Assembly: GCA_947584965.1 (NCBI GenBank)
Contig: CANPWQ010000009.1
Span: 1-50,063 of the forward strand
DNA from: Candidatus Gastranaerophilales bacterium
GTDB taxonomy: Bacteria > Cyanobacteriota > Vampirovibrionia > Gastranaerophilales > Gastranaerophilaceae
DNA length: 50,063 nucleotides
Direction: 5' to 3'
The notes beneath the pieces are model-generated. The model made no database searches. It saw nothing but the letters and a program-made list of their open reading frames with translations, and had not been told where the DNA came from. This document shows positions 1,707 through 42,358 of this stretch, piece by piece. A program made the position numbers and the translations under genes. The first letter of the stretch is position 1. Every line of letters starts with the position of its first letter.

Positions 1707-1909
1707 TTTTCTTTTTCCTTTATTATCTCTACTGTTTAAAATTCTTCTTAGCTTTCGCTAATTATTATCTTTACATAAAAATAAAATTTTTTAAAGATAA
1801 CACTCAATTTTAATATATTTGTGAAGAAAAATTAAAATTTTTTAAAAAACTCTAAAGTTTTTTTAAATTCTGCCGATTAATAACGCATAGGTTAAAAAGG
1901 AGAGTTTTT

Positions 1910-2122
1910 ATGTTCGTTTTAGGGAATTTAAAAAAGTACAAAGGCTTTATCGGTACAACAAAAGAATCAATTGATGCAATACAAAGATTTATCGAAAAAA
2001 ATAATAATGAAGTAAATGCGGTTGTTGAAGAAGAACCTGCTGCTTCCGTTAACAGAATTTTAAAAAGCGTTGAGTGCGAAGAAACAAATTCCGAAATTCA
2101 AAAAATTATCGATAAACTGTAG
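1910..2122 (+). CDS. Small acidic protein of unknown function (70 aa)
   Basis: I do not recognise this protein. It is 70 residues, acidic and probably soluble and helical, with a central glutamate cluster (EEEP) and a C-terminal helix-like stretch. There is no signal peptide, membrane segment or metal motif. A good ribosome binding site, AAGGAGAG (1898-1904), sits about 6 bases before the ATG, which argues for real translation. It is divergent from fusA across a roughly 200-base AT-rich gap and precedes asnS by 58 bases, so it may share a transcript with asnS. Function cannot be inferred. Confidence 0.6.
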   Translation: MFVLGNLKKYKGFIGTTKESIDAIQRFIEKNNNEVNAVVEEEPAASVNRILKSVECEETNSEIQKIIDKL

Positions 2123-2180
2123 TTATCCGAAAAAAATTGTGTTATTATTAACCCGCTAGGTATTTTTTAGAGGGGTTAAT

Positions 2181-3464
2181 ATGAAAAAAATTTGGATTTG
2201 TGATATTAAGGACTATGAAGGTAAAGAAATAACACTTCAAGGCTGGCTTTATAATAAGCGTTCAAGCGGAAAACTTCATTTTTTACAGCTTCGTGACGGA
2301 ACGGCTGAAATACAAGCTGTTGTTTTTAAAGGGAATGTGTCTGATGAAGTTTTTGATTTAGCAGATAAAATTCCGCAGGAAAGTTCTGTTGAAATAACGG
2401 GAACAGTTAAGAAGCATGAACGCTCTAAAATAGGATATGAACTTGATGCGACTGATGTAAAAGTTATGTCTGTTGCAAATGACTACCCTATAACTCCTAA
2501 AGAGCATGGAACTCATTTTTTAATGGAACACCGCCACTTATGGCTGCGTTCTTTAAAACAAAAAGCAATTTTAAATATTCGGCACAGAATTATAAAATCC
2601 GTGCGTGACTTTTTTGATTCACACGGGTTTACCCTTGTAGATGCCCCTATATTTACCCCTAATGCCTGTGAGGGAACTACAAACCTTTTTGAAACGGATT
2701 ATTTTGATACAAAGGCATATTTAACTCAATCTGGGCAGTTATATATGGAAGCTGCCGCAATGGCAGTAGGTAAAGCATATTGCTTCGGTCCTACTTTTAG
2801 AGCTGAAAAATCAAAAACTCGCCGTCACTTGACGGAATTTTGGATGGTAGAACCTGAAATTGCTTTTGCTGATATTTATGATGATATGGATATAGCTGAA
2901 GAGTTTGTTGAATACATTGTTCAGCAGGTTGTTGAACACAATAGAGCAGATTTAGAAACTCTTGAACGTGATATTTCCAAGCTCGAAAATATTAAACGTC
3001 CGTTCCCCAGAATTTCTTATGATGAAGCAATAGAAATATTACATAAGAAAGGAAATGAAACTCCTTGGGGTGAAGATTTCGGCGGTGACGAGGAAACATT
3101 AATCTCGGAAGAATTTGACAAACCCGTTATGATTCACCACTACCCGATGGCTGTTAAGGCGTTTTATATGAAACAAGACGGAAATAAAGCTGCCTGTGTT
3201 GATGTTATTGCGCCTGAGGGCTACGGAGAAATGATTGGCGGAGGTCAAAGAGAAGAAGACCTTGATAAATTGTTAGCTAAAATTAAAGAACAGGGACTCC
3301 CCGAAGAAGTATTTGACTGGTATTTGGATTTAAGAAAATACGGTTCCGTTCCGCATGCAGGTTTCGGACTTGGCATAGAAAGAACTGTTGCATGGATTTG
3401 CGGTTTGCCTCATGTCCGTGAAACTATACCGTTTCCGAGATTAATGGATAGAATCAGACCTTAA
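2181..3464 (+). CDS. asnS: Asparaginyl-tRNA synthetase
   Basis: Class IIb aminoacyl-tRNA synthetase that charges tRNA-Asn with asparagine in the cytoplasm. The 427-residue length fits the bacterial family (about 430-465). An N-terminal OB-fold anticodon-binding domain (about residues 1-105, with [20 protein letters not shown]) is followed by the catalytic domain. Motif 2 is visible as [20 protein letters not shown] and motif 3 as [15 protein letters not shown], ending in the AsnS-typical VRETIPFPR. An archaeal-type AspRS is the nearest alternative, but the C-terminal motif favours AsnS. Its presence suggests direct charging of tRNA-Asn. The RBS is modest (AGAGGGG). A GC-rich inverted repeat follows the gene. 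Confidence 0.95.
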
Positions 3465-9498: not shown

Positions 9499-10803
9499 AT
9501 GAAAATAATTGACATAATTGAAAAGAAAAAACAAGGGCAAGCGCTTAATGAGGAGGAAATAAAATATTTTATAGACGGCGTAACAAAGGGAACAATTGAA
9601 GACTATCAAATAAGCGCTCTGCTTATGGCAATTTATTTTCGCGGAATGAATACGGATGAAACCGTATACTTAACAAAGTATATGGCATATTCAGGGGAAG
9701 TATTGAATTTAGAAGATATCTCAAATGATATAACGGATAAACACTCAACAGGCGGTGTGGGAGATAAAATAACCTTAATGTTTCTGCCGATAATCGCTTC
9801 AGCAGGGCTTTATGCGGCTAAATTATCGGGCAGAGGATTAGGTCATACCGGCGGTACAATAGATAAATTAGAGTCAATTCCGGGATTTAGAACGGATTTA
9901 AGTATAGATGAATTTAAAACAAAAGTAAAAGAGTATAAAACGGCAATAGCTGCGCAGACGATGTCATTAGCGCCTGCTGACGGAAAGCTCTATGCATTAA
10001 GGGATGTAACCTCCACTGTGGATATAATTCCTTTAATAGCGTCATCGGTCGTATCAAAAAAAATAGCGTCGGGGGCAAATCATATAATACTGGATGTAAA
10101 ATACGGTTCGGGCGCATTTATAAAGACTCCCGAAGATGCTGAAAAATTGTCAAAAATAATGGTGGAAACAGGTAAGCGCCTCGGCAGAAATATAAGCGCG
10201 GTAATCAGCAGTATGCAAGAGCCTTTAGGCAGGGCAATAGGTAATTCCGTTGAAATTCAAGAAGTAATTGAATTTTTAAAAGGCAATATGGAAAGCGATT
10301 TAAAAGAAGTAACATATATGCTTTGCTCGCAGGCGTTTGAAAAATCGGGCAAAATATTAAACAAAGAAGAAGCGTATAAATATATTGATGAACTTATACA
10401 AAGCGGAAAAGCGCTTGAAAAATTTAAGGAAATAATTAAATCGCAAGGCGGAGATGAAAGAATTGTAAATGATTATTCTCTGCTTCCTCAATCAAAAATA
10501 AAATATGAAGTTAAGACTGATAAAGCAGGTTTCGTATCAAATATTGACGCATTAAAAGTTGCAAAAGCGTGTAAAAATTTAGGCGCAGGCAGAGAGAAAA
10601 AGACTGATACAATAGATTATTCGGCAGGAATTTATTTAACTAAAAAAACGCAGGATGAAGTGCTTTCGGGTGATACAATAGCTGTTTTATATACTAATAA
10701 AGAAACAGCATTAAATGAGGCGGAAGAACTTGTTAAATCTGCTTTTGAAATAACAAATACAAAACCGCAGGCAAAGTCGCTCATTTATAAAGTAATAAAT
10801 TAA
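9499..10803 (+). CDS. pdp: Pyrimidine-nucleoside phosphorylase
   Basis: Phosphorolyses uridine, thymidine or deoxyuridine to base and (deoxy)ribose-1-phosphate for salvage and carbon use. I start it at the ATG at 9499, giving 434 residues (the B. subtilis enzyme has 433), because a GGAGG site lies 5-9 bases upstream. The frame is open back to a GTG at 9469, but that lies inside the preceding terminator stem. Motifs: DKHSTGGVGDK (phosphate binding), KLSGRGLGHTGGTIDKLESIPG, SRxx-type loop AQTMSLAPADGKLYALRDVT, and LDVKYGSGAF. The absence of an N-terminal or anthranilate-transferase-like deviation makes trpD unlikely. The stop converges with the next gene over TTAA. Confidence 0.93.
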   Translation: MKIIDIIEKKKQGQALNEEEIKYFIDGVTKGTIEDYQISALLMAIYFRGMNTDETVYLTKYMAYSGEVLNLEDISNDITDKHSTGGVGDKITLMFLPIIASAGLYAAKLSGRGLGHTGGTIDKLESIPGFRTDLSIDEFKTKVKEYKTAIAAQTMSLAPADGKLYALRDVTSTVDIIPLIASSVVSKKIASGANHIILDVKYGSGAFIKTPEDAEKLSKIMVETGKRLGRNISAVISSMQEPLGRAIGNSVEIQEVIEFLKGNMESDLKEVTYMLCSQAFEKSGKILNKEEAYKYIDELIQSGKALEKFKEIIKSQGGDERIVNDYSLLPQSKIKYEVKTDKAGFVSNIDALKVAKACKNLGAGREKKTDTIDYSAGIYLTKKTQDEVLSGDTIAVLYTNKETALNEAEELVKSAFEITNTKPQAKSLIYKVIN

Positions 10804-29951: not shown

Positions 29952-30749
29952 TTATTTTCTGTTTAAATTTTTATCCATACTGCCGCTTTGTAAACCTTCA
30001 AGGTCAAGCGTAATATAGTTAAACCCGATTTTTTTAAATTTTTCAATAATATGGCAAGAGAGTTTTAATAATTTATCAAAATCCTCTTTTGGCACTTCTA
30101 TTCTTGCAATATCCGCGTGCATACGCACCCTTAGAGCTGAAAATCCGTATTCTTTTAATATATTTTCACCTTGTTTTACCGTTTCAATTTTTTTAGCTTC
30201 TAACCTTGTATTATAAGGGAAACGTGTTGCAATACAAGGAACAGCGGGTTTATTATAAAATTCAAGTTCCTGTTCTTTTGCAAAATCTCGTATTTCTTCT
30301 TTTGTAATATTGAATTTTGCAAACGGTGAAATAATATCAAGCTCTTTAAGTGCTTTTAATCCCGGGCGGTATGTAGTAAGGTCATTTGCATTTGTTCCGT
30401 CAATAATATATTTTATATTGTTTTTTGCGCAAAAATCTTTTAATTCGCTAAAAAGAGCATATTTGCAGTGATAACATCTGTCAGGCGGATTATTTATTAT
30501 ATTCTCGTTATCAAGCGGATTAACCTCTAAAATTGTGTGTTTTACCGAATATTTTTCAGTAAATTTAATTGTATTATTTATTTCATCATCTGTTAAAAAT
30601 AAGGTTTTAAATGTAACGGCGGTTATATTTAAGTCTTTGCATAAGTATAAAAGCAAAGAAGAGTCGACTCCGCCCGAAAATGCAAGACAGATACCATGTT
30701 TTGACATATTAATTAATTCATTTTTTAATTGTTTGAATTTGTTATTCAT
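29952..30749 (-). CDS. larE: LarE, ATP-dependent sacrificial sulfur transferase
   Basis: Converts the carboxylates of the pyridinium precursor to thiocarboxylates while making the nickel-pincer nucleotide (NPN) cofactor. The 265 residues carry a PP-loop SGGVDS (25-30) for AMP activation. Cys172 in VPCIATRFPY matches the single sacrificial cysteine of the Lactobacillus plantarum enzyme; no second or third cysteine follows, arguing against the 4Fe-4S-type LarE. Cys92 and Cys95 (DRCYHC) form another conserved pair. It is the last gene of larB-larC-larE and lies 11 bases after larC. Confidence 0.9.
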   Translation of the reverse strand: MNNKFKQLKNELINMSKHGICLAFSGGVDSSLLLYLCKDLNITAVTFKTLFLTDDEINNTIKFTEKYSVKHTILEVNPLDNENIINNPPDRCYHCKYALFSELKDFCAKNNIKYIIDGTNANDLTTYRPGLKALKELDIISPFAKFNITKEEIRDFAKEQELEFYNKPAVPCIATRFPYNTRLEAKKIETVKQGENILKEYGFSALRVRMHADIARIEVPKEDFDKLLKLSCHIIEKFKKIGFNYITLDLEGLQSGSMDKNLNRK

Positions 30750-30760
30750 TAAAAAACCTT

Positions 30761-31498
30761 TTAATCAAAAAGAAAAACACGTAAAATCGGATTTTTATAA
30801 TTTCGCTTGCCTGCTCCCGAGCCTGTTTTAATAATAATCATTTCTTGGGGTAATTTTTCACCGCCGTAAAGTGCGGCAGCAATAGCTATACCTGTCGGAG
30901 TTACCATTTCACCATCGGTATCCGTTAACTTTAGCGGAATTTTATATTCCTGTGCAATGGCGCATACTGCGGGAACGGGAACATTTAAAGTCCCGTGCTG
31001 ACATTCTACCGTGCCATGACCTTCCATTAACGTTGAAAAATATACTTTTTGCGGGTTTAAATCATCAAAAAGCACTGCAAAACTAATTATATCAGCAATA
31101 GAATCAATTGCTCCGACCTCATGAAAATGGACTTCTGTAATATCTTTGCCATGCACTTTTGCTTCTGCTTGTGCAACAATTTTAAATATTTTCTTTGCCA
31201 AATTTTTTGCATTATCCGTCATATCTGCTTTATCAATTATTTTGTTAATATCATCAAGATTTCTGTGTTCATGGTGGTGATGATGTCCCAAATGCTCATG
31301 ATGAGGCAGAATTACATTAAAATCCGTTGCTTGGATTGTGTTAATACTTACTTTCTTTATTTCATAAGAAAACTCATTATCAAGTTTTAATGAACTTAAT
31401 GCCTTGTCAAGTTTTGTTTTGTCTGCGCCTAAATCTAACAAAGCACCTACTGACATATCACCTGAAATTCCCGAATTACATTCAAAATATATATTCAT
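30761..31498 (-). CDS. larC: LarC N-terminal (LarC1) part: nickel-insertion protein for NPN
   Basis: LarC inserts nickel into the dithio-precursor to finish the NPN cofactor. The protein is 245 residues, with CNSGISGDMSVGALLDLGAD at the start and a histidine cluster HHEHLGHHHHHEHRN (66-79) that fits nickel binding. Family members of full length are about 400 residues. Here the frame stops right after NPILRVFLFD, where the LarC2 domain would begin, and larE starts 11 bases later. In L. plantarum larC1 and larC2 are joined by programmed frameshifting; here no room exists for LarC2. Its start overlaps the larB stop (TAATG). Confidence 0.85.
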   Translation of the reverse strand: MNIYFECNSGISGDMSVGALLDLGADKTKLDKALSSLKLDNEFSYEIKKVSINTIQATDFNVILPHHEHLGHHHHHEHRNLDDINKIIDKADMTDNAKNLAKKIFKIVAQAEAKVHGKDITEVHFHEVGAIDSIADIISFAVLFDDLNPQKVYFSTLMEGHGTVECQHGTLNVPVPAVCAIAQEYKIPLKLTDTDGEMVTPTGIAIAAALYGGEKLPQEMIIIKTGSGAGKRNYKNPILRVFLFD

Positions 31499-32181
31499 TA
31501 CTTTTTACCTGCTATTTGTCTGTTTATTTGATTTGCGCTGTATCCTGCGTTAAATCCGTTGTCGATATTAACAACGCTAATACCCTCAGCGCAAGAATTG
31601 AGCATTGTTAAAAGCGCCGATAATCCTTTAAATGAAGCTCCGTAACCAATAGAAGTCGGTACCGCAATGACGTGAGAAGTTGCCATGCCTGCAATAATTG
31701 AAGCTAAAGCCCCCTCCATGCCCGCAACTGCTATTATTACATTTGCTTTGTTTATGTCATCTATTTTATCAAACAGTCTGTGAATGCCCGAAACGCCTAT
31801 ATCATAATACCTTTTAACATTGCTTCCGAAAAATTCGGCAGTTAATGCAGCTTCTTCCGCAACGGGTATGTCACCTGTTCCGCCCGTGCAAACGGCAACT
31901 TCGCCGATTTTTTCCGTTTCCTGCAGTGTTAAAGTTAAAATTCGTCCTTTTTCGCTGTATTTAATGTCGGGTAATTTTTCTTTTAAATAATTATACTGTT
32001 CAATATTTGCACGGGTTCCAAGTACATTTGTTTTATTATCTTTAAATGTTTGAAAAATTTTTAAAAGCTGTTCGTTGGTTTTGCACTCGCAAAATACTGC
32101 TTCAGAATACCCGCGCCTTTTAGTGCGTTCCATATCAAGTTTTGCAAAATCAAGCTCAATATATTTTTTATTATTCTCCAT
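31498..32181 (-). CDS. larB: LarB, NaAD carboxylase/hydrolase of nickel-pincer cofactor synthesis
   Basis: Starts NPN synthesis by carboxylating nicotinic acid adenine dinucleotide and cleaving it. The 227 residues have an N-terminal extension (about 1-90, GYSEAVFCECKTNEQL) and a PurE-like domain: VAVCTGGTGDIPVAEEAALTAEFFG, AGMEGALASIIAGMATSHVIAVPTSIGYGASFKG. Cys197 (LNSCAEG) lies where the L. plantarum catalytic Cys221 is found. PurE itself is excluded by the extension and larC/larE context. A GAGG site precedes the ATG. larA, the lactate racemase that uses NPN, is not in the window. Confidence 0.9.
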   Translation of the reverse strand: MENNKKYIELDFAKLDMERTKRRGYSEAVFCECKTNEQLLKIFQTFKDNKTNVLGTRANIEQYNYLKEKLPDIKYSEKGRILTLTLQETEKIGEVAVCTGGTGDIPVAEEAALTAEFFGSNVKRYYDIGVSGIHRLFDKIDDINKANVIIAVAGMEGALASIIAGMATSHVIAVPTSIGYGASFKGLSALLTMLNSCAEGISVVNIDNGFNAGYSANQINRQIAGKK

Positions 32182-32214: not shown

Positions 32215-33246
32215 TCAAGATTTATTATTATCACGTTCAAACTGTTTTTTTGTTGCAATCCTGTTTAATAGCGCAACAGCAGCTCCTATTGCCATTGTGT
32301 TTATTAAGAATGTTAATCCGTAAGAGAAATTTTTGCTTTTCAAATACTGTTTTTGCAATTTGCTCGGGAGTTTTAATATATCATCATAAGATTTTATTAT
32401 TCCGTTTTCAATGATTTTAGTATTAAATAACTTATCAAAGCCTTTATAGATTGGTTTTTCAATTAATTTTTCTCCAAAGAACAGTAAAGGTACGGTAACA
32501 GAAAATCTTCTTGCGTTTTCTTTTCTTTCATATTTATCTCTTGAAGCATAAAAATAACTTGCAATACTGACGGGATAAATAAAAGCTCCATAGTGAGCAA
32601 GTTTTAAATCATTGGTTTTAGTAAAATCAAAATGTTTAATAACGGCAGTTATTGCAGGTTCTAATTTTTTATATACATTGTCATTTTTAGCTGCCGTTAA
32701 AATGCCTGCTGTTAAAGCAAGTCCGCCCATTGCATTTAACATTAATTTCTTTATTAAAGATTTGGCTTTATTTTTTCCGTCTTTTTCCTGTTCTTTTTTA
32801 TCTTTTAGTCCTACGACCTCCGTAAATTCTTCTTTTCCGCTTTGGCTTGAAGTCAGAAAATTTCTGACAGGTGCTATTGCAAAAACTAACGGCAATATAA
32901 CACTAAAAACGGAAGCTATTTTGCCAAATTTAGCTAATTTAATATTTTTTAATTGTTCATTTGAAACGGATTGTATTTCCTCAATCGGCATAGATATTAA
33001 TCTTGAACCTGTTTTATATTTATTTTTAAAAAATTCATTTGTTATTTTAGCTGCCCCGGGTGCTGAAAAATAAAAAAGTGCCGATTCTGCCATTTCCGCA
33101 AATGTTATTTCTTTTGCTTCTTCCCTGCTTCTTGAAATTGCAAGTTTCGGAATAAGACAGCCTCCCGTGTCCCTTACAAACATTCCGGCTGATGAACTTG
33201 TCTCCATTCCTCTTAGTATTTTTGTTCCGAGTGTTATTCCGTTCAT
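32215..33246 (-). CDS. Uncharacterised membrane protein with conserved N-terminal motif (343 aa)
   Basis: Not recognised as a named family. It starts with a soluble segment containing TGGCLIPKLAISRSREEAKE (27-46), which looks like a conserved core. Hydrophobic helices are near 110-128, 170-186, 225-240 and 310-330, with a charged linker (KKEQEKDGKNKAK, about 149-161). No transport or catalytic signature is visible. It sits 33 bases upstream of larB on the same strand and may be cotranscribed with it. Its own promoter would give a leader of only a few bases. I suspect a lineage-specific Gastranaerophilales family, from memory and unproven. Confidence 0.6.
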   Translation of the reverse strand: MNGITLGTKILRGMETSSSAGMFVRDTGGCLIPKLAISRSREEAKEITFAEMAESALFYFSAPGAAKITNEFFKNKYKTGSRLISMPIEEIQSVSNEQLKNIKLAKFGKIASVFSVILPLVFAIAPVRNFLTSSQSGKEEFTEVVGLKDKKEQEKDGKNKAKSLIKKLMLNAMGGLALTAGILTAAKNDNVYKKLEPAITAVIKHFDFTKTNDLKLAHYGAFIYPVSIASYFYASRDKYERKENARRFSVTVPLLFFGEKLIEKPIYKGFDKLFNTKIIENGIIKSYDDILKLPSKLQKQYLKSKNFSYGLTFLINTMAIGAAVALLNRIATKKQFERDNNKS

Positions 33247-33255
33247 ATAATTTAT

Positions 33256-33284
33256 ATTAAATGATGATAGTAATTATCAGTCAA
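33256..33284 (-). promoter_or_regulatory. Promoter of the 343-residue membrane protein gene
   Basis: On the minus strand TTGACT (33284-33279), 17 bases, TTTAAT (33261-33256). Nine bases separate the -10 from the ATG at 33246 and no Shine-Dalgarno sequence is present, so the transcript would be leaderless or nearly so. Confidence 0.5.
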
Positions 33285-33351
33285 TATATGGATTATAATT
33301 TACTCTTAATATAAAATTTGATAAAATAAAAATATTAAGGAGCCGCTAATT

Positions 33352-34644
33352 ATGAAAAGTACCTATTATAAAACAGTTAATAAAGGTAATAGTTTAAAAT
33401 CATTTCTAATAGCTATATTGTTGTTTTTTCTTCTTCCTATAATAATTCCCATAATTTATATTGTACTTACATTATTTGGTTCTATCTCAGGCATGTTGCT
33501 GGATGATATAATTCCTAATGAACTAAAAGGTCCTCTATGCATCGGTATTATAATTATACTTACATTAATTGCATATATACTTTGGTTTATATTTGGACGT
33601 GATAAACATGTTACGCCGATTGTTAGTTTTGAACCGCCTAAGGATACAAACAGCGCTGAATTAGAACTAAATTGTTACGGCTGTGCTTCCGAAAGAGGTG
33701 TTAAATCATTAATTTACTATTTGGCAAGTAAAGACTATTTAAGAATTGAAAAATTGAATAATAATTATGTATTAAGAAAATTAAAACCTTATGACGGAAA
33801 CGATGAAGCGGAAAGAGTGTTCTTTGATGGTATTTTTGGTGATGATGTTGAACTCGTAAATTTAAATAGATTACTTTCTTCAAATTCCTTTTATTTTTTG
33901 TGTGTAAATGTACAAACATTACTTAATAACTTGAACAGGGATAATTTTAAAAATAACGGAGCAATAGTTTCTAAAGTTATTATTGTATTAGTATGTGCTT
34001 TGGGAATTGGTTTATCTTTATTATATACACTGGCTGATTATTCTTTTAAATTGATATTTTCACCAAATTCTTGGCTGTTTTTATTTACGTTTATTGCAAT
34101 ATGGGCAGCAGTGTATTTTTGCTGTAACTATGGACAAATGCAAGGTTCTGTACAGGTAAGCGGTGCAAGTAAACATACAGTTGAAAATATAAAGAAACAT
34201 AGAAAAATATATACGTTACTGTTTATGCTTTTTTGGTGTGCAGGCTTTGGCGGAATTCCTTTATTTATTATATTTCAAAGTGAAACAATCAAATTTAATC
34301 ATCCTACGGAAACAATTTTTGGATTAGTTTGTTTAATAATAAGTTTTATATGTATAGTTAACATGCCTCGGTTAAGCAGAAAAGGACGAGAGCTTAAAGG
34401 TTTGGCTATCGGCTTTAAAAGATTTTTAGAGGTAACAGAAAAAAGAAGATTTGATGAGTTAATCGGAGAAAATCCGAATTACGCCAGAGAGGTTTATCCG
34501 TATGCTTTTGCTTTAGGAATAACAGACTCATATATTACCGATCTTGATATTCTTGCTGCAAGTCAATCTTATTCAGGTGATTATTTGGATGCTGAAAGTA
34601 TAAAACAAATTAATAATATATTGAAAAAAAATGGAGTAAATTAA
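33352..34644 (+). CDS. DUF2207-like membrane protein
   Basis: A 430-residue integral membrane protein. A first pair of transmembrane helices (about 17-42 and 58-84) is followed by a cytoplasmic winged-helix-like region (VSFEPPKDTNSAELELNCYG and VKSLIYYLASKDYLRIEK). A second helix pair follows (about 205-270), then further hydrophobic segments near 285 and 325, and a C-terminal tail. The order matches the C-terminal part of DUF2207 proteins, but the extracytoplasmic N-terminal DUF2207 domain is missing. It overlaps lemA by one base; DUF2207 and LemA genes are commonly paired. An AAGGAG site precedes the ATG. Confidence 0.72.
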   Translation: MKSTYYKTVNKGNSLKSFLIAILLFFLLPIIIPIIYIVLTLFGSISGMLLDDIIPNELKGPLCIGIIIILTLIAYILWFIFGRDKHVTPIVSFEPPKDTNSAELELNCYGCASERGVKSLIYYLASKDYLRIEKLNNNYVLRKLKPYDGNDEAERVFFDGIFGDDVELVNLNRLLSSNSFYFLCVNVQTLLNNLNRDNFKNNGAIVSKVIIVLVCALGIGLSLLYTLADYSFKLIFSPNSWLFLFTFIAIWAAVYFCCNYGQMQGSVQVSGASKHTVENIKKHRKIYTLLFMLFWCAGFGGIPLFIIFQSETIKFNHPTETIFGLVCLIISFICIVNMPRLSRKGRELKGLAIGFKRFLEVTEKRRFDELIGENPNYAREVYPYAFALGITDSYITDLDILAASQSYSGDYLDAESIKQINNILKKNGVN

Positions 34645-35192
34645 TGACTAATATTATAATTGCAGTTGGAATAGTTGTGATTGGTTTATTAATATTTGCA
34701 TACAATAAGGCAATAGTGCTTAGAAACTATGTGAGAGAAGCCTTTTCAACAATGGATGTATATTTAAAAAAACGCTGGGATTTAATTCCTAATTTAATTG
34801 AAATAGTAAAAAGTTACGCAGCTCATGAAAAAGATGTTTTTGAGCAGGTTACGAAGCTCAGAAGTGCCAATTACAGTAAGTTAAAGACTTCACAAAAAAT
34901 TGACGTAAATGAAAAACTTACCTCAGGAGTAGCAAAAATACTTGCGGTCGCCGAAAATTATCCCGAAATAAAAGCAAATCAAAATTATGCGCTCTTGATG
35001 ACTCAATTAGCTGACGTTGAAGAAGATATTGCAAATTCCAGAAAGTATTATAACGGCACGGTTAGGGAATTAAATACATATACGGAAACATTCCCGTCTA
35101 ATATTATTTGTGCTTTATTCGGTGTTAAACGTGCAAAATTATTTGAAATTAATGAAAGTGAAAGAAATAGTATAAAAGTTAATTTCAATTAG
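34644..35192 (+). CDS. LemA family protein
   Basis: A 182-residue protein with one N-terminal membrane helix (about 2-20, out-in) and a four-helix LemA domain. Landmarks are FAYNKAIVLRNYVREAFSTMDVYLKKRWDLIPNLIEIVK and EKDVFEQVTKLR, then LMTQLADVEEDIANSRKYYN and FPSNIICALFG. LemA's function is poorly defined; it is linked to membrane-protein partners such as DUF2207 proteins. A GGAG site lies within the upstream gene. It overlaps tatC by eight bases in convergent orientation. Confidence 0.9.
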   Translation: MTNIIIAVGIVVIGLLIFAYNKAIVLRNYVREAFSTMDVYLKKRWDLIPNLIEIVKSYAAHEKDVFEQVTKLRSANYSKLKTSQKIDVNEKLTSGVAKILAVAENYPEIKANQNYALLMTQLADVEEDIANSRKYYNGTVRELNTYTETFPSNIICALFGVKRAKLFEINESERNSIKVNFN

Positions 35193-35895
35193 AAAATTTA
35201 GCAAATAATAATCCGCTTTCAAATAAAAGGTAAGAGGGAATTGCCAGCATTAACTGGCTCACTATGTCAGGCGGTGTCAATATTCCCGCAAGTACTAATA
35301 ATGCAACCACCACATAAGGTCTTTTTTCAGCAATGGACGAGTATGTTACAATATCTGATTTTATCAGATAAAACGTGATAACGGGAAGCTGAAACATTAA
35401 CCCGAATGCCAAAGAAAGCCATAACCCAAGGTTTATAACTTCTGATATTCTGAATACCGCTTGGATATTCTCTGCTTGAAAGCTCAAACCGAAATTTATT
35501 ATTAAAGGCAGTATCATAAATATGCAAAATACAACTCCAGCCGTAAATAAAAAACTTGAAATTAATACTAATGATTTAATAAACTTTTTTTCACCCTCAT
35601 AAAGTGCGGGCAGGATAAAATTCCAAAGTTGTTTTGCGATATAAGGGAAACAAACTATTACAGACAGTAAAACCGCCATTTTTATTTGAATTATAAATAC
35701 TTCGGCAGGTGAAAAAAAGTTTAACGTGACTTTATTTCCGCCTAAAAGAATTTTTATAAAATAATTTAACACCTTTGGTGCGAAATAAAACATAAAAGGC
35801 AATACTATTGCAACCGAATATAAGCATTTAAGAATAGTTTTTCTCAATGCTTCAAGATGAGAAATCAAACTTTCATCTTTTTCTTCATCGCTCAT
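35185..35895 (-). CDS. tatC: Sec-independent protein translocase TatC
   Basis: Receptor core of the twin-arginine translocase, which exports folded proteins. The 236 residues have six expected transmembrane helices. Typical features are the N-terminal ESLISHLEALRKTILK, with the conserved glutamate before helix 1, FYFAPKVLNYFIKILLG, FFSPAEVFIIQIKMAVL, and ALLVLAGILTPPDIVSQLMLAIPSYLLFE. It is the last gene of an AKR-polyferredoxin-tatA-tatC operon, two bases after tatA. Its likely clients include the upstream aldo/keto reductase. Confidence 0.95.
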   Translation of the reverse strand: MSDEEKDESLISHLEALRKTILKCLYSVAIVLPFMFYFAPKVLNYFIKILLGGNKVTLNFFSPAEVFIIQIKMAVLLSVIVCFPYIAKQLWNFILPALYEGEKKFIKSLVLISSFLFTAGVVFCIFMILPLIINFGLSFQAENIQAVFRISEVINLGLWLSLAFGLMFQLPVITFYLIKSDIVTYSSIAEKRPYVVVALLVLAGILTPPDIVSQLMLAIPSYLLFESGLLFAKFSN

Positions 35896-35897
35896 TA

Positions 35898-36113
35898 TTA
35901 TATTTCATCGCTCTTAAATTCTGTCGGAGGTTCTTGTGAGTCTTCTATGGCAGTTTTAATTTCATCTGTTTCTTTTTTTATGACATCTTTCGCCTTTTTA
36001 AATTCATAAGACGCTCTGCCAAGAGCCCTTGCAAGTTCGGGTATTCTTTTTCCGCCGAATAAGAGCAATATAACAACAATTATTAAAGTAATTTCGGTTA
36101 TTCCAAGCGACAT
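35898..36113 (-). CDS. tatA: Sec-independent protein translocase TatA/TatE-type pore subunit
   Basis: A 71-residue subunit with the TatA hallmark: a short N-terminal helix ([27 protein letters not shown]) followed by an amphipathic helix and acidic tail ([19 protein letters not shown]). The [14 protein letters not shown] motif is diagnostic. No separate TatB is visible here, so the system may use a bifunctional TatA as in Gram-positive minimal Tat. The AAGGAG site is strong. It lies 22 bases after the polyferredoxin gene. Confidence 0.93.
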
Positions 36114-36135
36114 ATTTTTCTCCTTTTAAAAAAGA

Positions 36136-37410
36136 TTATACTCTTTGCTGCTCATTTATTGCAAATATTTCTATTGCGCCTGAAGTGCAAACACTTTTAC
36201 ATTTTCCGCAGCCTATGCATTTTGAAGCATCTATTTTTGCAGGTTCATTTGCTTCCTTTGTTATTGCATTTACGGGACATACATTTATACACATTCCGTT
36301 TTTATTGCATTTTTCAGGGTTGATTACAGCCATTGCTATTCTTGTTCTTTGTTTTTCCTCAATCGTAATTTTCTTTATTGCACCCGACGGACATACTTTT
36401 GAGCATTCAATGCAGTCATATTTACAGTGTTTTTCTCCTTTTGTATAGTTAATATGTACTGCACCAAAGTCTTTATTTGCTTTTGTTAAGATTTTATTCG
36501 GGCATGCGTTTATGCAAAGATTGCAATTTAAGCATTTATTAAACATCCTTTGAGCGTTATCGGCTCCCGGGGGCAGAATAATATTTTTTATCTTTTCTGC
36601 GGCGGTTTTGCCTATCTCGATACCTGCTTTTATTGCACCAGCCAAAACAATAAGCGCTGCGCCGAATGTAATTAACTCACGCCTTTTTGGGCTGAACTCC
36701 GTATTCTTTATCGGTTTAATTCCGTATTTAATAGCGTTTTTCGGGCATTGATTAAGACATTTAAAACACTTAACGCAAGTTTCGTTATCGACTTTTGCGT
36801 TATCAACTTCAATGCAGCCTGCGGGGCAGTTTCTTTCGCACATACCGCAGGATAAACACTCATCCTCATTTATGTAAATTTTCAAAAGTGAGATTTTTGA
36901 TAACAATCCCAATAAACATCCGACGGGACAAATGTTCGTGCAAAAGTATCTGTTTTTGAACAGGGTTAATACTATTATTGCGATGAGCGCGATTATTCCT
37001 ATTACTGATAAAGTAAATGCGGAACCAAAATATGTATAAGGTTCTAAATATCTGATTAATAATGCGCTTCCGCCTATCATAGCCCCTATGGTTATTGCTG
37101 CTATAAAATATTTAACAGGCAGATTTTTTCTCGGTTCTTCGTTTCCCTCACCTCTAAAGAGAGCTGTAATTTCTTGGATTAAACCCAAAGGGCAGAGCAT
37201 TGAACAGTAAAATCTGCCGAATAATAACGTTAATAAAAGCATGACTACAAGAGTAACAGCACTAATAACCGAAAAATCAATTATTACTCTTTGAATTAGA
37301 GGTGCCATTTGAATATTAAATAATGGCAGGGGATAAAAAACCCCGACAACCGCAAGTATTGCCATTATAAATATTAAAATTGCAATTCCCAAACGTATTT
37401 TATATAACAT
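36136..37410 (-). CDS. Membrane polyferredoxin with internal twin-arginine motif (NapH-NapG-like)
   Basis: A 424-residue electron-transfer protein. The first half has about four membrane helices with NapH/NosR-type CxxxCP loops (FYCSMLCPLG, Cys69/73; YFCTNICPVG, Cys157/161), then two 4Fe-4S motifs (Cys185-195, Cys212-222). At 241-263, PKRRELITFGAALIVLAG looks like a Tat signal followed by a helix. After it come four more cluster motifs beginning at Cys293, Cys329, Cys368 and Cys398. The third of these (CNKNGMCINVCP) has Asn371 where the second cysteine should be. This resembles NapH fused to NapG. It overlaps the upstream reductase stop by one base (TAATG). Confidence 0.85.
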   Translation of the reverse strand: MLYKIRLGIAILIFIMAILAVVGVFYPLPLFNIQMAPLIQRVIIDFSVISAVTLVVMLLLTLLFGRFYCSMLCPLGLIQEITALFRGEGNEEPRKNLPVKYFIAAITIGAMIGGSALLIRYLEPYTYFGSAFTLSVIGIIALIAIIVLTLFKNRYFCTNICPVGCLLGLLSKISLLKIYINEDECLSCGMCERNCPAGCIEVDNAKVDNETCVKCFKCLNQCPKNAIKYGIKPIKNTEFSPKRRELITFGAALIVLAGAIKAGIEIGKTAAEKIKNIILPPGADNAQRMFNKCLNCNLCINACPNKILTKANKDFGAVHINYTKGEKHCKYDCIECSKVCPSGAIKKITIEEKQRTRIAMAVINPEKCNKNGMCINVCPVNAITKEANEPAKIDASKCIGCGKCKSVCTSGAIEIFAINEQQRV

Positions 37411-38642
37411 TATGCACTCGCCTTTGCTTTTTCGTATTCTTTTTGAACCTGTGCCAATAAATCAGGTATGGGAAGATTTTGCGGACAGTTTTTATTGCAT
37501 AATCCGCATTTAATGCAATTATTGGCTTTTTCGCTTTCGCTAAGTGTTTCATAATATACTTTTAGGTGAAACGCACTATTTGTGACTTTGTATTGATTGT
37601 ATAAAGAAAAAATTGCCGGAATGTTAATTCCTTTTGGGCAGACTTCCGTACAGTATTTGCAGGCAGTACAATTAATTTCACCTTGTGATTGAATAATTTT
37701 AGCCATTTCATCAGCAACTTTTATTTCTTCTTCGCTCATAGGAGTAAAGTTTTCAAAGACAGCTATATTTTCTTTCATTTGTTTTAAATTGCTCATGCCT
37801 GACAGAACAGTTACTACATTATTTTGGCTTGCAGCCCACCTTAAGCCGAACTCGGCAGGTGTTGCATTTGGGTAGTTTCCTTTTAATTTTGCCATGGCTT
37901 TTTCGCTTAAATTAACCAGGCCGCCTCCTCTTAAAGGTTCCATTACCGTGACGGGGATACCCTCAGCTTGAACTATATTATATTGTTCGTGAGCTTTTAC
38001 AACATCCCAATCCAAATAATTAACCTGCAGCTGCGCAAAATCCCAATTATAATCTTTTACTACCTCTTTTAAAATTTCAGGAGTACCGTGGAAAGAAAAT
38101 CCAAAATATTTAATTAAACCTTCTTCTTTTAATTTATTGAGTTCTTCGACCATTTTAACATTTCTGTATTGCTCAAAAGTATTGACATTTATATTGTGGC
38201 ACATATAGAAATCAAAATAATCAACTTGGCATTTCTTTCTTTGCTCGTCGAAAATTTTTCTGACATCGCTTTGTGAATTCATTTTATAAATAGGACTTTT
38301 ATCGGCAAGGATGAAAGAATTTCTGTCATACCTTTTTAATACTTTGCCGATAGCGGTTTCGGAATTCCCGTCAACGTACATATAAGCTGTATCAAAATAA
38401 TTAGCACCGTGAGCGAATGCGTATTCCGTCATCTTTTCAAGCTCAACCATATCGATTTTATTGCCATTCATAGGAAGACGCATAAGCCCAAAGCCTAAAA
38501 GCGGCACGGTTATATCTTTATATTTTCTTTTTATAACTTGTCCTTGCGCTTTTATTGTTTTATTTTTTCCGCAGCCTGTTGTCATTAAAGCAGTACCGCC
38601 AAGAGCAAGAACAGAACTTTTTATAAATTCACGACGTTTCAT
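37410..38642 (-). CDS. Tat-signal aldo/keto reductase with C-terminal 2x[4Fe-4S] domain
   Basis: A 410-residue protein beginning MKRREFIKSSVLALGGTALM, a twin-arginine signal (Arg3-Arg4); a TTGC at 21-24 could be a weak lipobox. The TIM-barrel aldo/keto reductase domain (about 40-310) has the tetrad Asp84, Tyr89 (YFDTAYMYVDGNSE), Lys115 and His149. The C-terminus carries two ferredoxin-type clusters: CTACKYCTEVCP (Cys325-335) and CIKCGLCNKNCP (Cys376-386). Most such clustered reductases are cytoplasmic; an exported one would have no NAD(P)H, so electrons may come from the polyferredoxin encoded next. An AAGGAG site precedes the ATG. It heads the operon. Confidence 0.88.
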   Translation of the reverse strand: MKRREFIKSSVLALGGTALMTTGCGKNKTIKAQGQVIKRKYKDITVPLLGFGLMRLPMNGNKIDMVELEKMTEYAFAHGANYFDTAYMYVDGNSETAIGKVLKRYDRNSFILADKSPIYKMNSQSDVRKIFDEQRKKCQVDYFDFYMCHNINVNTFEQYRNVKMVEELNKLKEEGLIKYFGFSFHGTPEILKEVVKDYNWDFAQLQVNYLDWDVVKAHEQYNIVQAEGIPVTVMEPLRGGGLVNLSEKAMAKLKGNYPNATPAEFGLRWAASQNNVVTVLSGMSNLKQMKENIAVFENFTPMSEEEIKVADEMAKIIQSQGEINCTACKYCTEVCPKGINIPAIFSLYNQYKVTNSAFHLKVYYETLSESEKANNCIKCGLCNKNCPQNLPIPDLLAQVQKEYEKAKASA

Positions 38643-39782: not shown

Positions 39783-39989
39783 ATGGGAAGAATAGTTTTA
39801 AACAGAGATAGATGTAAAGCGTGTTATTTATGTGTAGACGCTTGTCCTAAAAAGGTGTTGGGGGCAGATAATCAGGTAAATGCCTTAGGATATTATCCAG
39901 TTAAAGTAAATAACGTAGAGGAATGTATAGGCTGCGCTATGTGCGCAAGAGTTTGTCCCGACATTGCAATTGAAAAGGTATACAGATGA
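39783..39989 (+). CDS. 2x[4Fe-4S] ferredoxin subunit of 2-oxoacid:ferredoxin oxidoreductase
   Basis: A 68-residue dicluster ferredoxin. Two motifs are visible: CKACYLCVDACPKKV and CIGCAMCARVCPDIA, each with the complete CxxCxxCxxxCP set. It is the delta-type subunit that passes electrons from the TPP enzyme to free ferredoxin. The stop overlaps the alpha-subunit ATG (ATGA), so the four subunits are translated together. The Shine-Dalgarno sequence is weak (ACAGG). Confidence 0.9.
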   Translation: MGRIVLNRDRCKACYLCVDACPKKVLGADNQVNALGYYPVKVNNVEECIGCAMCARVCPDIAIEKVYR

Positions 39990-41086
39990 AAAGAGAGAAA
40001 CAGCTTTTAAAAGGAAATTATGCTATTGCTCAGGCCGCTATTGAAGCGGGCTGTCAAAGCTATTTCGGATATCCTATTACACCTCAAAGTGAAATAGGGG
40101 AATATTTAAGTACCAAAATGCCTGAGCTTGGCAGGGCTTATGTTGCTGCGGAAAGTGAAGTTGCTGCAATAAATATGGTGCTTGGTGCGGGTTCTACGGG
40201 TGTTAAGGCAATGACATCATCTTCCTCTTGTGCAGTAGCACTTATGCAAGAGGGATTATCATTTATAGCAGGTGATGAAATACCGTGTGTGCTGGTTAGT
40301 GTTATGCGCGGCGGGCCGGGGTTAGGATATATTTACCCATCGCAAGGCGATTATTACCAAGCAACAAAAGGCGGCGGTAACGGCGATTATAAGATTGTTA
40401 CTTATGCTCCCGCAAGCGTGCAGGAATGTGTTGACCTTACTTATAAATGTTTTTATGTTTCTCAAAAATACAGAACTCCTGTATGTCTTTTAGCTGACGG
40501 AATGATAGGTCAAACTATGGAGCCTGCGGTTATTGGTGAGTATCCTTATGAAGAAATTGATCAATCTGATTGGGCTTTGGATGGGGCTAAGGATAGGGAA
40601 CCGAGATTTATTGCTTCTATTGAACGTGAGCAGGAATCATTGCGAAAAAGAGTTGTTAAGATTTTTGAAAAATATAATAAAATTTTGGAAAATGAAAATA
40701 TTTTTGAAAAATATGAAACAGAGGGTGCAAAACTTGTTATTACCGCATTCGGAAGTATCGCAAGAATTGCAAAAGCTGCTGTTAAATTAGCCAGAAAAAA
40801 CGGACTTAAGGTAGGATTATTCAGACCTGTTATGTTAAATCCGTTCCCCGAAAAACTGGTAGCGGAAATTGCTCAAAAAGTAGACGGTATTTTGGATATT
40901 GAACTTAACTGCGGGCAAATGCTTCAAGATATTAAAGCAAGTATCGCAAATTGTGCTTCAACAATACCAGTAAAATTCTACGGCAGACCTGCCGGGGTTA
41001 TGATGACTGTTGAAGAAATCTATAAACAAATAGAAAATGTATACAAAGAAATAGTAGAGAAAAAATATGGAACAGCTTGTATATAA
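39986..41086 (+). CDS. vorB: 2-oxoacid:ferredoxin oxidoreductase alpha subunit (VorB type)
   Basis: Part of a complex that oxidatively decarboxylates a 2-oxoacid to acyl-CoA, CO2 and reduced ferredoxin. The 366 residues show GYPITPQSEIGEYLS, TSSSSCAVALMQEGLSFIAGDE and RGGPGLGYIYPSQGDYYQATKGGG. The last segment matches VorB (branched-chain 3-methyl-2-oxobutanoate) enzymes better than 2-oxoglutarate KorA. Specificity cannot be settled from sequence alone; KGOR remains possible. It overlaps the ferredoxin gene (ATGA) and the beta subunit by 20 bases. Confidence 0.9.
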   Translation: MKREKQLLKGNYAIAQAAIEAGCQSYFGYPITPQSEIGEYLSTKMPELGRAYVAAESEVAAINMVLGAGSTGVKAMTSSSSCAVALMQEGLSFIAGDEIPCVLVSVMRGGPGLGYIYPSQGDYYQATKGGGNGDYKIVTYAPASVQECVDLTYKCFYVSQKYRTPVCLLADGMIGQTMEPAVIGEYPYEEIDQSDWALDGAKDREPRFIASIEREQESLRKRVVKIFEKYNKILENENIFEKYETEGAKLVITAFGSIARIAKAAVKLARKNGLKVGLFRPVMLNPFPEKLVAEIAQKVDGILDIELNCGQMLQDIKASIANCASTIPVKFYGRPAGVMMTVEEIYKQIENVYKEIVEKKYGTACI

Positions 41087-41822
41087 AAAACCCGATTCAA
41101 TTAAAGATGATTTTAAAATATCATTTTGTCCGGGGTGTGACCATGGAACAGCGGTAAAACTTGTGGCAGAAGTGCTTGATGAGCTTGGAGTCAGAGAAAA
41201 AACCATAGGGATTGCCTCTGTCGGGTGCAGTGTATTTTCTTATGACTTTTTTAATTTGGATATAGTTGAAGCACCGCACGGACGTTCAATGGCAGTCGCA
41301 ACGGGGGTTAAACGCTCAAAACCCGATAAAATTGTATTTACATATCAAGGTGACGGTGATTTAGCTTCTATCGGTTTGGCTGAAACAATACATGCCATGA
41401 CAAGGGGCGAAAAAGTTACTGCCATTTGTATAAATAATACTACATACGGAATGACGGGAGGACAGGCAGGACCTACCACTTTAATCGGGCAGGTTACAAC
41501 CACAACAACAAGCGGAAGAAAAGCAGAGTTGTCCGGGTATCCCTTAAAAATATCGGAAATTCTAAAAGAAGTTGACGGAACTGCTTATGTTGCAAGAGTT
41601 ACATTGGACAGCCCCGCTGCTATTATGAATGCTAAAAAATGTATTAAAAAGGCATTTGAAGCTCAAATAAAAGGATTAGGAACGGGATTTATAGAAATAC
41701 TTTCAACATGCCCGACAAACTGGAAAATGACTCCGCAAGAAGCTCATGCAAGGGTTCGCGGTGAGATGTCGGAGGTATTTAAACCCGGAGTATATAAAGA
41801 TAAAGTCAGTGAGGCGCTATAA
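41067..41822 (+). CDS. 2-oxoacid:ferredoxin oxidoreductase beta subunit (TPP-binding)
   Basis: A 251-residue thiamin-diphosphate-binding subunit. CPGCDHGTAVKLV is the N-terminal Fe-S/TPP region, FTYQGDGDLASIGLAETIHA holds the GDG TPP motif, and NNTTYGMTGGQAGPTTLIGQ is the conserved magnesium/diphosphate loop (N-x-T-Y-G-M-T-G-G-Q). STCPTNWKMTP near the end is also typical. It overlaps both neighbouring subunits. Confidence 0.93.
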   Translation: MEQLVYKKPDSIKDDFKISFCPGCDHGTAVKLVAEVLDELGVREKTIGIASVGCSVFSYDFFNLDIVEAPHGRSMAVATGVKRSKPDKIVFTYQGDGDLASIGLAETIHAMTRGEKVTAICINNTTYGMTGGQAGPTTLIGQVTTTTTSGRKAELSGYPLKISEILKEVDGTAYVARVTLDSPAAIMNAKKCIKKAFEAQIKGLGTGFIEILSTCPTNWKMTPQEAHARVRGEMSEVFKPGVYKDKVSEAL

Positions 41823-42358
41823 TGGATTCAAACGTATTAATAGCAGGATTTGGCGGTCAGGGAGTATTATTTATCGGTCAATTATTGGCGGAAGCTGCCA
41901 TGAACCACGGTTTAAATTGTACATGGACACCTGCATACGGTGCCGAAATGAGAGGCGGAACGGTTAATTGTACCGTTTGTGTTTCTGATGATGAAGTTGC
42001 GTGTGCTTATGTTGAAACTCCGCAAAATGTTATTGCACTGAACGGACCGTCTTTTGAAAGATTTGAAAAGAAAATTAAATCGGGCGGAGTAATGATTGTG
42101 AATTCCTCACTTGTAAAATCAGCTCCAAGCAGAAATGATATAACATATAAATTTGTTCCGATGACGGATATAGCACATAATTCGGGACATGAAAAAATGG
42201 CAAATATAGTTTCATTGGGTGCTTTTTTAAAAGTTTTTCCTTTCATATCCAAGGAAAACATAATAAATGCGATGAAGAAAAAGCTGACAGGCAAAAAGGC
42301 TTCAATGCTTGACGGGAATATAAAAGCGCTTGATGAGGGATATGCCGCTGTTAATTAA
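41822..42358 (+). CDS. 2-oxoacid:ferredoxin oxidoreductase gamma subunit
   Basis: A 178-residue subunit with the family pattern: VLIAGFGGQGVLFIGQLLAEAAM, WTPAYGAEMRGGTVNCTVCVSDDEV, and the C-terminal region FISKENIINAMKKK. It completes the delta-alpha-beta-gamma set. The start overlaps the beta-subunit stop by one base. The stop overlaps the convergent methionine-gamma-lyase-family gene by eight bases (TTAATTAA). Confidence 0.93.
   Translation: MDSNVLIAGFGGQGVLFIGQLLAEAAMNHGLNCTWTPAYGAEMRGGTVNCTVCVSDDEVACAYVETPQNVIALNGPSFERFEKKIKSGGVMIVNSSLVKSAPSRNDITYKFVPMTDIAHNSGHEKMANIVSLGAFLKVFPFISKENIINAMKKKLTGKKASMLDGNIKALDEGYAAVN

Follow-up and report, generated by a model that had tools for sequence, protein, structure and literature searches.

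The window analysed here, a stretch of 50,063 nucleotides from a Candidatus Gastranaerophilales bacterium (assembly GCA_947584965.1, contig CANPWQ010000009.1, positions 1 to 50,063), carries an operon that probably encodes an extracytoplasmic redox enzyme together with its own electron feed and exporter. Four minus-strand genes at positions 35185-38642 encode an aldo/keto reductase (AKR), a polyferredoxin (PFD) and the TatA and TatC proteins of the twin-arginine translocation (Tat) system. Judged from sequence, the AKR would be fed by PFD, and the products of nearby lar genes, which are likely linked to the AKR-PFD-Tat module, would most likely make a bound cofactor for it. An earlier reading of the same DNA, made without database searches (the sequence-only reading), had proposed a Tat-exported redox operon at this location. 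The operon is real: coordinates and strand were confirmed, and Pfam and NCBIfam profiles support all four family assignments. The AKR and PFD genes overlap by one base, with gaps of 22 bp between PFD and TatA and of 2 bp between TatA and TatC. The window thus encodes both TatA and TatC of a translocase, and the TatC match is the only one in the whole 1.73-Mb genome (94.6% complete). PFD is likewise the sole protein with Fer4_5 matches found in that genome.

The N terminus of the AKR (MKRREFIKSSVLALGGTALMTTGC) contains a twin-arginine signal followed by a lipobox-like cysteine, Cys24, and the protein is predicted to be a Tat-exported lipoprotein. The signal, which the sequence-only reading had also recognised, recurs as an arginine pair with a cysteine near residue 24 in all 35 fetched family AKR frames that retain an N terminus; four of these 35 frames contain a later in-frame stop. 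Selenocysteine was considered for the in-frame TGA of some AKRs and rejected: stops of all three kinds occur, at differing places, and are therefore read as decay or assembly errors. Three Bacteroidota proteins are among the 17 aligned AKRs in which R3, R4, F6 and C24 are invariant. The AKR signals of loci L165, L167 and L188 have no lipobox-like cysteine in the N-terminal part examined. Membership of the aldo/keto reductase superfamily is indicated by the PF00248 barrel and by residues D84, Y89, K115 and H149, which we take to be the catalytic tetrad and which are present in 62 of 62 aligned sequences. A structure model built from 62 sequences (predicted local distance difference test score, pLDDT, 91.8) returned known AKRs as its top Foldseek matches, several of them NADP(H) complexes. 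In the best 60 of 204 solved AKR relatives, the best aligned stretch did not reach the Fe-S part.

The best NCBIfam match of PFD is NapH, at a score below the family cut-off. In the PFD model (pLDDT 80.5), long helices span residues 2-22, 48-64, 99-112, 136-152 and 242-272, and we read these five as membrane helices. An internal twin arginine, R243-R244, starts the last of them, with low model confidence at residues 236-241; the invariance of this pair (19/19) spans two phyla. As modelled, PFD has the layout of dual Sec/Tat polyferredoxins, with about five helices and a twin arginine directly before the fifth. PFD itself is therefore predicted to be a Tat substrate, with its last four clusters expected on the outer side of the membrane. 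Two of the operon genes, AKR and PFD, would thus encode Tat substrates, while the other two encode the translocase. A Foldseek search with the PFD model gave partial ferredoxin matches only, with TM-scores of 0.14-0.18 for the top 11.

The distribution of PFD follows that of the exported form of the AKR. We compared 80 named AKR loci, with flanks of up to 8 kb, and checked the AKR N termini for a Tat signal. PFD was found nearby in nine of the ten Tat-signal loci. It was absent from all 69 signal-less loci, apart from a weak 24% match on the opposite strand in L208, and 19 of these 69 have less than 2.5 kb of flank on one side. The ten Tat-signal loci comprise six of Gastranaerophilales type (L154-L159), RUG11954, a Victivallales metagenome-assembled genome (MAG), the proteobacterium MAG RUG10873 and a Marinifilaceae MAG. 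The remaining locus, L175, is a decayed Gastranaerophilales AKR copy that still has PFD beside it. AKR-PFD pairs were also found twice in Parabacteroides distasonis and once in Bacteroides finegoldii, where they are annotated merely as aldo/keto reductase and 4Fe-4S binding protein. The polyferredoxin therefore goes with the exported form, as expected if PFD replaces a cytoplasmic electron supply, and this supports the electron link between the two proteins that the sequence-only reading had suggested.

We surveyed 191 family genomes, counting an AKR as near-full at about 84% of its length or more. TatC exceeded its cut-off in 72 genomes, a near-full AKR was present in 63 (57 without a stop) and a near-full PFD in 66. 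The AKR occurred in 62 of the 72 TatC-positive genomes versus 1 of the 119 TatC-negative ones, and PFD in 64 of 72 versus 2 of 119. Ten TatC genomes lack a near-full AKR, and six of them contain AKR fragments (G130, G170, G214, G229, G236 and G260). PFD and TatC occur without any AKR match in G151 and G246. Gene order is also kept in relatives, as the sequence-only reading had required: of the 59 family genomes with all three of AKR, PFD and TatC, 57 have them collinear on a single strand, and in the other two they are split over different contigs. Genera such as g1, g2 and g4 contain both states, which suggests that joint loss may have occurred repeatedly. In G117, decay has left an AKR without signal and C-terminal part and a PFD without the twin-arginine helix; there is no TatC match in this genome, and TatC, LarB and LarC are absent from the 15 kb fetched around the locus. 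At positions 9550-10488 of this locus (L053, G117:C8), the start of TatA continues in frame into CbiM, apparently through a deletion that removed TatC, LarB and LarC. The co-occurrence fits the idea of an enzyme supplied by its own exporter, but the window genome has a second Tat-type signal, carried by a flavodoxin-fold protein encoded on contig C45.

The conserved unit extends beyond the self-contained four-gene operon of the sequence-only reading, which had missed the nickel-pincer genes of the unit and the flavodoxin of many relatives, as well as the internal twin arginine of PFD. The four genes stand, and to them are added, in most of the main-clade relatives sampled, larB and larC and often larE, a flavodoxin and cbiM, the gene of a nickel/cobalt transporter. 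As a synteny control, homologues of the open reading frames (ORFs) of at least 100 aa from four loci were sought in 36 TatC-bearing family loci, a non-random set made up of the 20 best AKR matches with the rest mostly exceptions and divergent copies. AKR, PFD and TatC were found in 32-36 of the 36 loci, frequencies that follow from the selection. Among unselected genes, flavodoxin was found in 17 loci, LarB and LarC each in 25-26, CbiM in 19-20 and LarE in 20-21 (the LarE counts take in opposite-strand copies, as in L072), with all other ORFs in 0-4 of 36, giving the unit sharp borders. Seventeen of the 36 loci have a same-strand run ordered LarB-LarC-CbiM-LarE; in 12 of these 17 a flavodoxin stands ahead of the AKR, yielding a nine-gene run flavodoxin-AKR-PFD-TatA-TatC-LarB-LarC-CbiM-LarE. 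Profile searches (Pfam, NCBIfam) confirmed LarB, LarC, LarE, CbiM and Flavodoxin_4 on example loci, and the LarB, LarC and LarE of the window are all above their NCBIfam cut-offs. At the window operon cbiM and the flavodoxin were not found, and larB-larC-larE lie downstream of tatC, with 3.0 kb between tatC and larB; among the 26 loci with LarB, this spacing is within 85 bp in 20 and 0.8-2.0 kb in six.

Within the main clade, presence of LarB follows that of the AKR. Of 28 loci, LarB was found in 26/26 with an AKR and in 0/2 without. The two loci that lack both, L064 (with 7.1 kb of room) and L065 (with only 1.0 kb), keep PFD, TatA and TatC; conversely, in L063 PFD is missing, yet the AKR and LarB-LarC are kept. 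In G244, a second AKR lies away from the operon (L062) and has CbiM 9 bp behind it. A cluster with a different order, PFD-TatA-TatC-AKR-flavodoxin-LarB-LarC-LarE, is present in the distant MAG RUG10873 (L188), whose PFD and AKR are 46% and 39% identical to those of the window; it also holds a membrane protein without a Pfam match that is metal-transporter-like by eye. Midpoint-rooted trees without support values place the PFD and LarB of RUG10873 next to the main family clade and its TatC within that clade, so the cluster may have been transferred and RUG10873 may be no independent case. LarA was above cut-off in none of the 191 family genomes, two weak matches falling short of it; the same profile gave matches in 2 of 14 named controls. 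A lactate racemase gene lies beside larB in one of five standard lar loci fetched, with none in three and one record unannotated, so larA need not adjoin larB.

Taken together, these features suggest the following mechanism. The AKR would fold and take up its clusters and cofactor in the cytoplasm, be exported folded by Tat and stay lipid-anchored outside. PFD would take electrons from reduced ferredoxin or membrane quinol as donor on the cytoplasmic side and relay them, first over its inner and next over its outer clusters, to both clusters of the AKR, possibly with the flavodoxin as an electron shuttle, and the AKR would reduce a carbonyl compound entering from the gut. The lar genes would most likely make the bound cofactor for the module. 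Tentatively, we suggest that the AKR is a non-LarA enzyme that uses the nickel-pincer nucleotide (NPN): a possible arrangement is that NPN, which is itself made from a NAD precursor, is fitted in the cytoplasm as a fixed hydride carrier, exported with the enzyme via Tat and recharged by electrons from PFD.

As to the donor, our guess is ferredoxin first and quinol second. Di Rienzi et al. (2013, PMC3787301) report that the sampled Melainabacteria lack a linked electron transport chain, quinones and Rnf, yet allow for vitamin K synthesis in some of them, and Soo et al. (2014, PMC4040986) urge caution in generalising from limited sampling. The futalosine pathway marker PF02621 had no match in the window genome, and one MenA-like prenyltransferase scored below all cut-offs. 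Divergent genes at window positions 39783-42358 resemble, by eye, a 2-oxoacid:ferredoxin oxidoreductase with its own ferredoxin subunit and are a possible source of reduced ferredoxin; comparable oxidoreductase-like genes are found upstream of the L154 operon (737-3145).

A quite conceivable alternative, short of probable, is that the exported AKR holds NAD(P)(H) tightly, having bound it in the cytoplasm and taken it along when the folded protein passes through Tat, and that this cofactor is recharged outside, with the lar genes serving another enzyme and being neighbours by history. The catalytic tetrad and the nucleotide-loop residues L280-S-G-M...N292 are the same in exported AKRs and their cytosolic sisters, so there is no sequence sign of a lost nucleotide site, and the exported AKR could still be a NAD(P) enzyme; the NAD(P)H independence proposed by the sequence-only reading finds no backing here. 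Lar-linked AKRs agree with the other exported AKRs and with the cytosolic ones in nearly all pocket columns inspected; N292, which lies at the adenine in other AKRs, is one of these shared positions. Where AKRs have the asparagine of the S-N pair, nearly every aligned sequence carries F or H. Deep-clade exported AKRs deviate at columns 184 and 288, where the lar-linked AKRs are unchanged. We found no sequence signature of NPN in the lar-linked AKRs: of the 14 columns listed that mark them, only E291 is a pocket column, and one row deviates in nearly all 14. The solved AKRs nearest by sequence or fold include NADP(H) complexes, and the GFOR of Zymomonas is exported by Tat with bound NADP. Against bound NAD(P)(H) stand the presence of LarB together with the AKR in the main clade (26/26 vs 0/2), the CbiM gene immediately behind the lone second AKR and the recurrence of the cluster, differently ordered, in RUG10873. 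One-electron clusters without a flavin are, in addition, poorly suited to recharging a nicotinamide.

Several observations beyond the unchanged active site weigh against the lar-linked, PFD-fed enzyme that we favour. There is no lar gene within about 5 kb in eight deep-clade Gastranaerophilales loci, seven of which have an AKR (LarB 0/7), nor near the Bacteroidota AKR-PFD pairs in the stretches fetched. A LarB search in PLSDB gave no Bacteroidota among the best 60 of 101 matches, a result of little weight. The family LarC lacks its C-terminal third, which we take to be the CTP-binding part: matches are confined to residues 1-282 of the 428-aa LarC of L188, whose C-terminal part had no other match at E 1e-3 in the loci compared, the rest of the window genome not having been searched. 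LarC requires CTP (PMC11796402). As for the electron feed, one Tat-signal AKR (L165, RUG11954) has no PFD in the 8 kb upstream, its contig ending just past the AKR, and G196 has AKR, TatA and TatC with no PFD match. Finally, the co-occurrence counts given above are raw and ignore relatedness.

The AKR might also run oxidatively, an alcohol or sugar being oxidised outside and the electrons passing inward via PFD, since the anatomy of the module leaves the direction unfixed. We consider this unlikely. Oxidation of an alcohol against low-potential clusters would be uphill. NapGH, the nearest known feed, runs from quinol outward (PMC5449189), and fermenting hosts without linked respiratory chains, as described for Melainabacteria (PMC3787301), need electron sinks more than donors.

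Less likely again is that the flavodoxin is the catalytic partner, with the AKR acting only in electron transfer or docking. Of 41 loci, 13 have a same-strand flavodoxin 12-119 bp upstream of the AKR, all but one of these with a hydrophobic N terminus, and a flavodoxin-fold protein with a Tat signal is encoded on contig C45 of the window genome. The AKR tetrad is nonetheless invariant in all 62 aligned sequences, and neither the window nor its nearest relatives, L072 and L074, showed a flavodoxin next to the AKR. We also considered whether the flavodoxin signal tracks TatC; the association is loose only and was dropped as evidence, because copies matched from residue 1 (at least 65%) occur in five TatC-negative genomes (G084, G094, G210, G218 and G258) and, read by eye, several TatC genomes have copies without the signal part. 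That an ordinary cytoplasmic AKR adjoins Tat genes by chance is hardly credible: 69 of the 80 AKR relatives found are signal-less, as such an AKR would be, and the conserved signal, the PFD pairing and the co-loss all speak against it.

The proposed module shares parts with several known systems. In its NapH-like helices and clusters, its twin arginine before the fifth helix and its NapG-like exported ferredoxin part, PFD is like Q1NSB0 of MLMS-1, a NapH-NapG fusion and dual Sec/Tat polyferredoxin whose exported part needs Tat in reporter fusions (Tooke et al. 2017, PMC5449189). Dual Sec/Tat polyferredoxins are named there from Chloroflexi, Nitrospirae and Euryarchaeota. In contrast to PFD, which is linked to an AKR and tatAC genes, Q1NSB0 is described there with no named enzyme partner, and 'aldo' does not occur in the main text of that paper. 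PFD also resembles the NapGH quinol dehydrogenase, which passes electrons from quinol outward, in cluster layout and in feeding electrons across the membrane (PMC5449189); unlike NapGH it is one fused chain, its partner is an AKR and its use of quinol is putative. Among exported enzymes fed in the manner of NapGH, the module represents a new variant. The AKR itself has the fold, the tetrad and the two 4Fe-4S motifs (62/62 aligned relatives) of the aldo/keto reductases with a C-terminal ferredoxin part, presumably COG1453, from which it differs in its predicted export by Tat and its tie to PFD.

Unexpectedly, the module is tied to nickel-pincer genes although LarA was not detected in this lineage. 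As in LarA nickel-pincer racemase systems, larB, larC and larE are present and linked; in contrast to those systems, LarA was not detected, LarC is shortened and the lar genes stand with genes for export and electron feed. In roughly 15% of the genomes analysed in PMC11796402, many of them from cyanobacteria, larB, larE and larC occur without larA, which implies non-LarA users of NPN. In the library searched, no paper joins aldo-keto reductase, 4Fe-4S and twin-arginine, and none joins nickel-pincer with aldo and keto reductase; among the titles listed by looser searches, none was on the subject. The features of the operon and its surroundings are collected in Table 1.

Table 1. Features of the AKR-PFD-Tat operon and the neighbouring lar genes in the window
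Feature	Coordinates	Strand	Evidence or remark
AKR: aldo/keto reductase with C-terminal dicluster ferredoxin part, 410 aa	37410..38642	-	PF00248 8e-45; Fer4 dicluster matches
AKR Tat lipoprotein signal (predicted), MKRREFIKSS...TTG then Cys24	38574..38642	-	R3, R4, F6, C24 invariant in 17/17 aligned
AKR 4Fe-4S motifs C325-C328-C331-C335 and C376-C379-C382-C386	37482..37670	-	Invariant in 62/62
PFD: NapH-NapG-like polyferredoxin, 424 aa	36136..37410	-	Two Fer4_5 and several Fer4 matches
PFD internal twin arginine R243-R244 and fifth helix, predicted Tat-dependent segment	36595..36684	-	Invariant in 19/19 and 18/18
TatA, 71 aa	35898..36113	-	PF02416 1.8e-16
TatC, 236 aa	35185..35895	-	TIGR00945 over cut-off
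tatC-larB intervening stretch: 343-aa protein of unknown function (-), DUF2207 protein (+), LemA (+)	32215..35192		Outside conserved unit
LarB, nickel-pincer cofactor biosynthesis	31498..32181	-	NF033503 over cut-off
LarC, first two thirds only, 245 aa	30761..31498	-	TIGR00299 over cut-off
LarE, sulfur transferase of nickel-pincer nucleotide synthesis	29952..30749	-	TIGR00268 over cut-off

Other Tat substrates of the window genome were sought with TIGR01409, which matched only the C45 flavodoxin and missed the window AKR; a DNA pattern, RRxF(hydrophobic)K, was therefore used instead. This sole motif variant searched gave 40 sites in the window genome versus 63 in a reversed control, and only the AKR and C45 flavodoxin sites look like signals, with a start codon and a hydrophobic stretch; more Tat substrates may exist. 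Contig C45 (L032, G000:C45, 929-2139) encodes a signal-bearing Flavodoxin_4 protein and, after it, an FMN_red/flavodoxin-fold protein with a Tat signal; the two appear to be exported and may be part of one outer redox network with the AKR module.

Variations on the module were seen at a number of loci. A single run in the Victivallales MAG (L167, 3774-10305) holds a PFD, two AKRs with Tat signals, one of which was recognised by eye, and a DUF362 protein that also has a Tat signal, and in Parabacteroides (L152, 6011-8548) a DUF362 protein with a Tat-like N terminus precedes PFD; DUF362 may be another client of the polyferredoxin. A tandem pair of Tat-signal AKRs stands ahead of a single PFD in L060 (G207:C19, 7047-9595). 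In L067 (G180:C13, 166-2134), a shorter PFD with two outer clusters by eye is followed by TatA and TatC, the contig start hiding what lies upstream. Upstream of PFD-TatA-TatC in L065 (G246:C53, 4181-5095), in a genome without an AKR match, lies the gene of a radical SAM protein whose N terminus resembles that of a Tat lipoprotein; an export signal would be an oddity on such an enzyme.

If the proposed module is real, supposed fermenters would drive a reductase outside the membrane via a dedicated exporter and an Fe-S wire. If in addition the AKR uses NPN, this would explain how it works where NAD(P)H is absent, and the system would be categorically new: to our knowledge, NPN has been found only in racemases and epimerases and in no net redox reaction, of which the AKR would then be the first case. 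A nickel-dependent AKR would also name a protein that uses NPN where LarA is missing, the question posed in PMC11796402, and would make that question testable with one operon.

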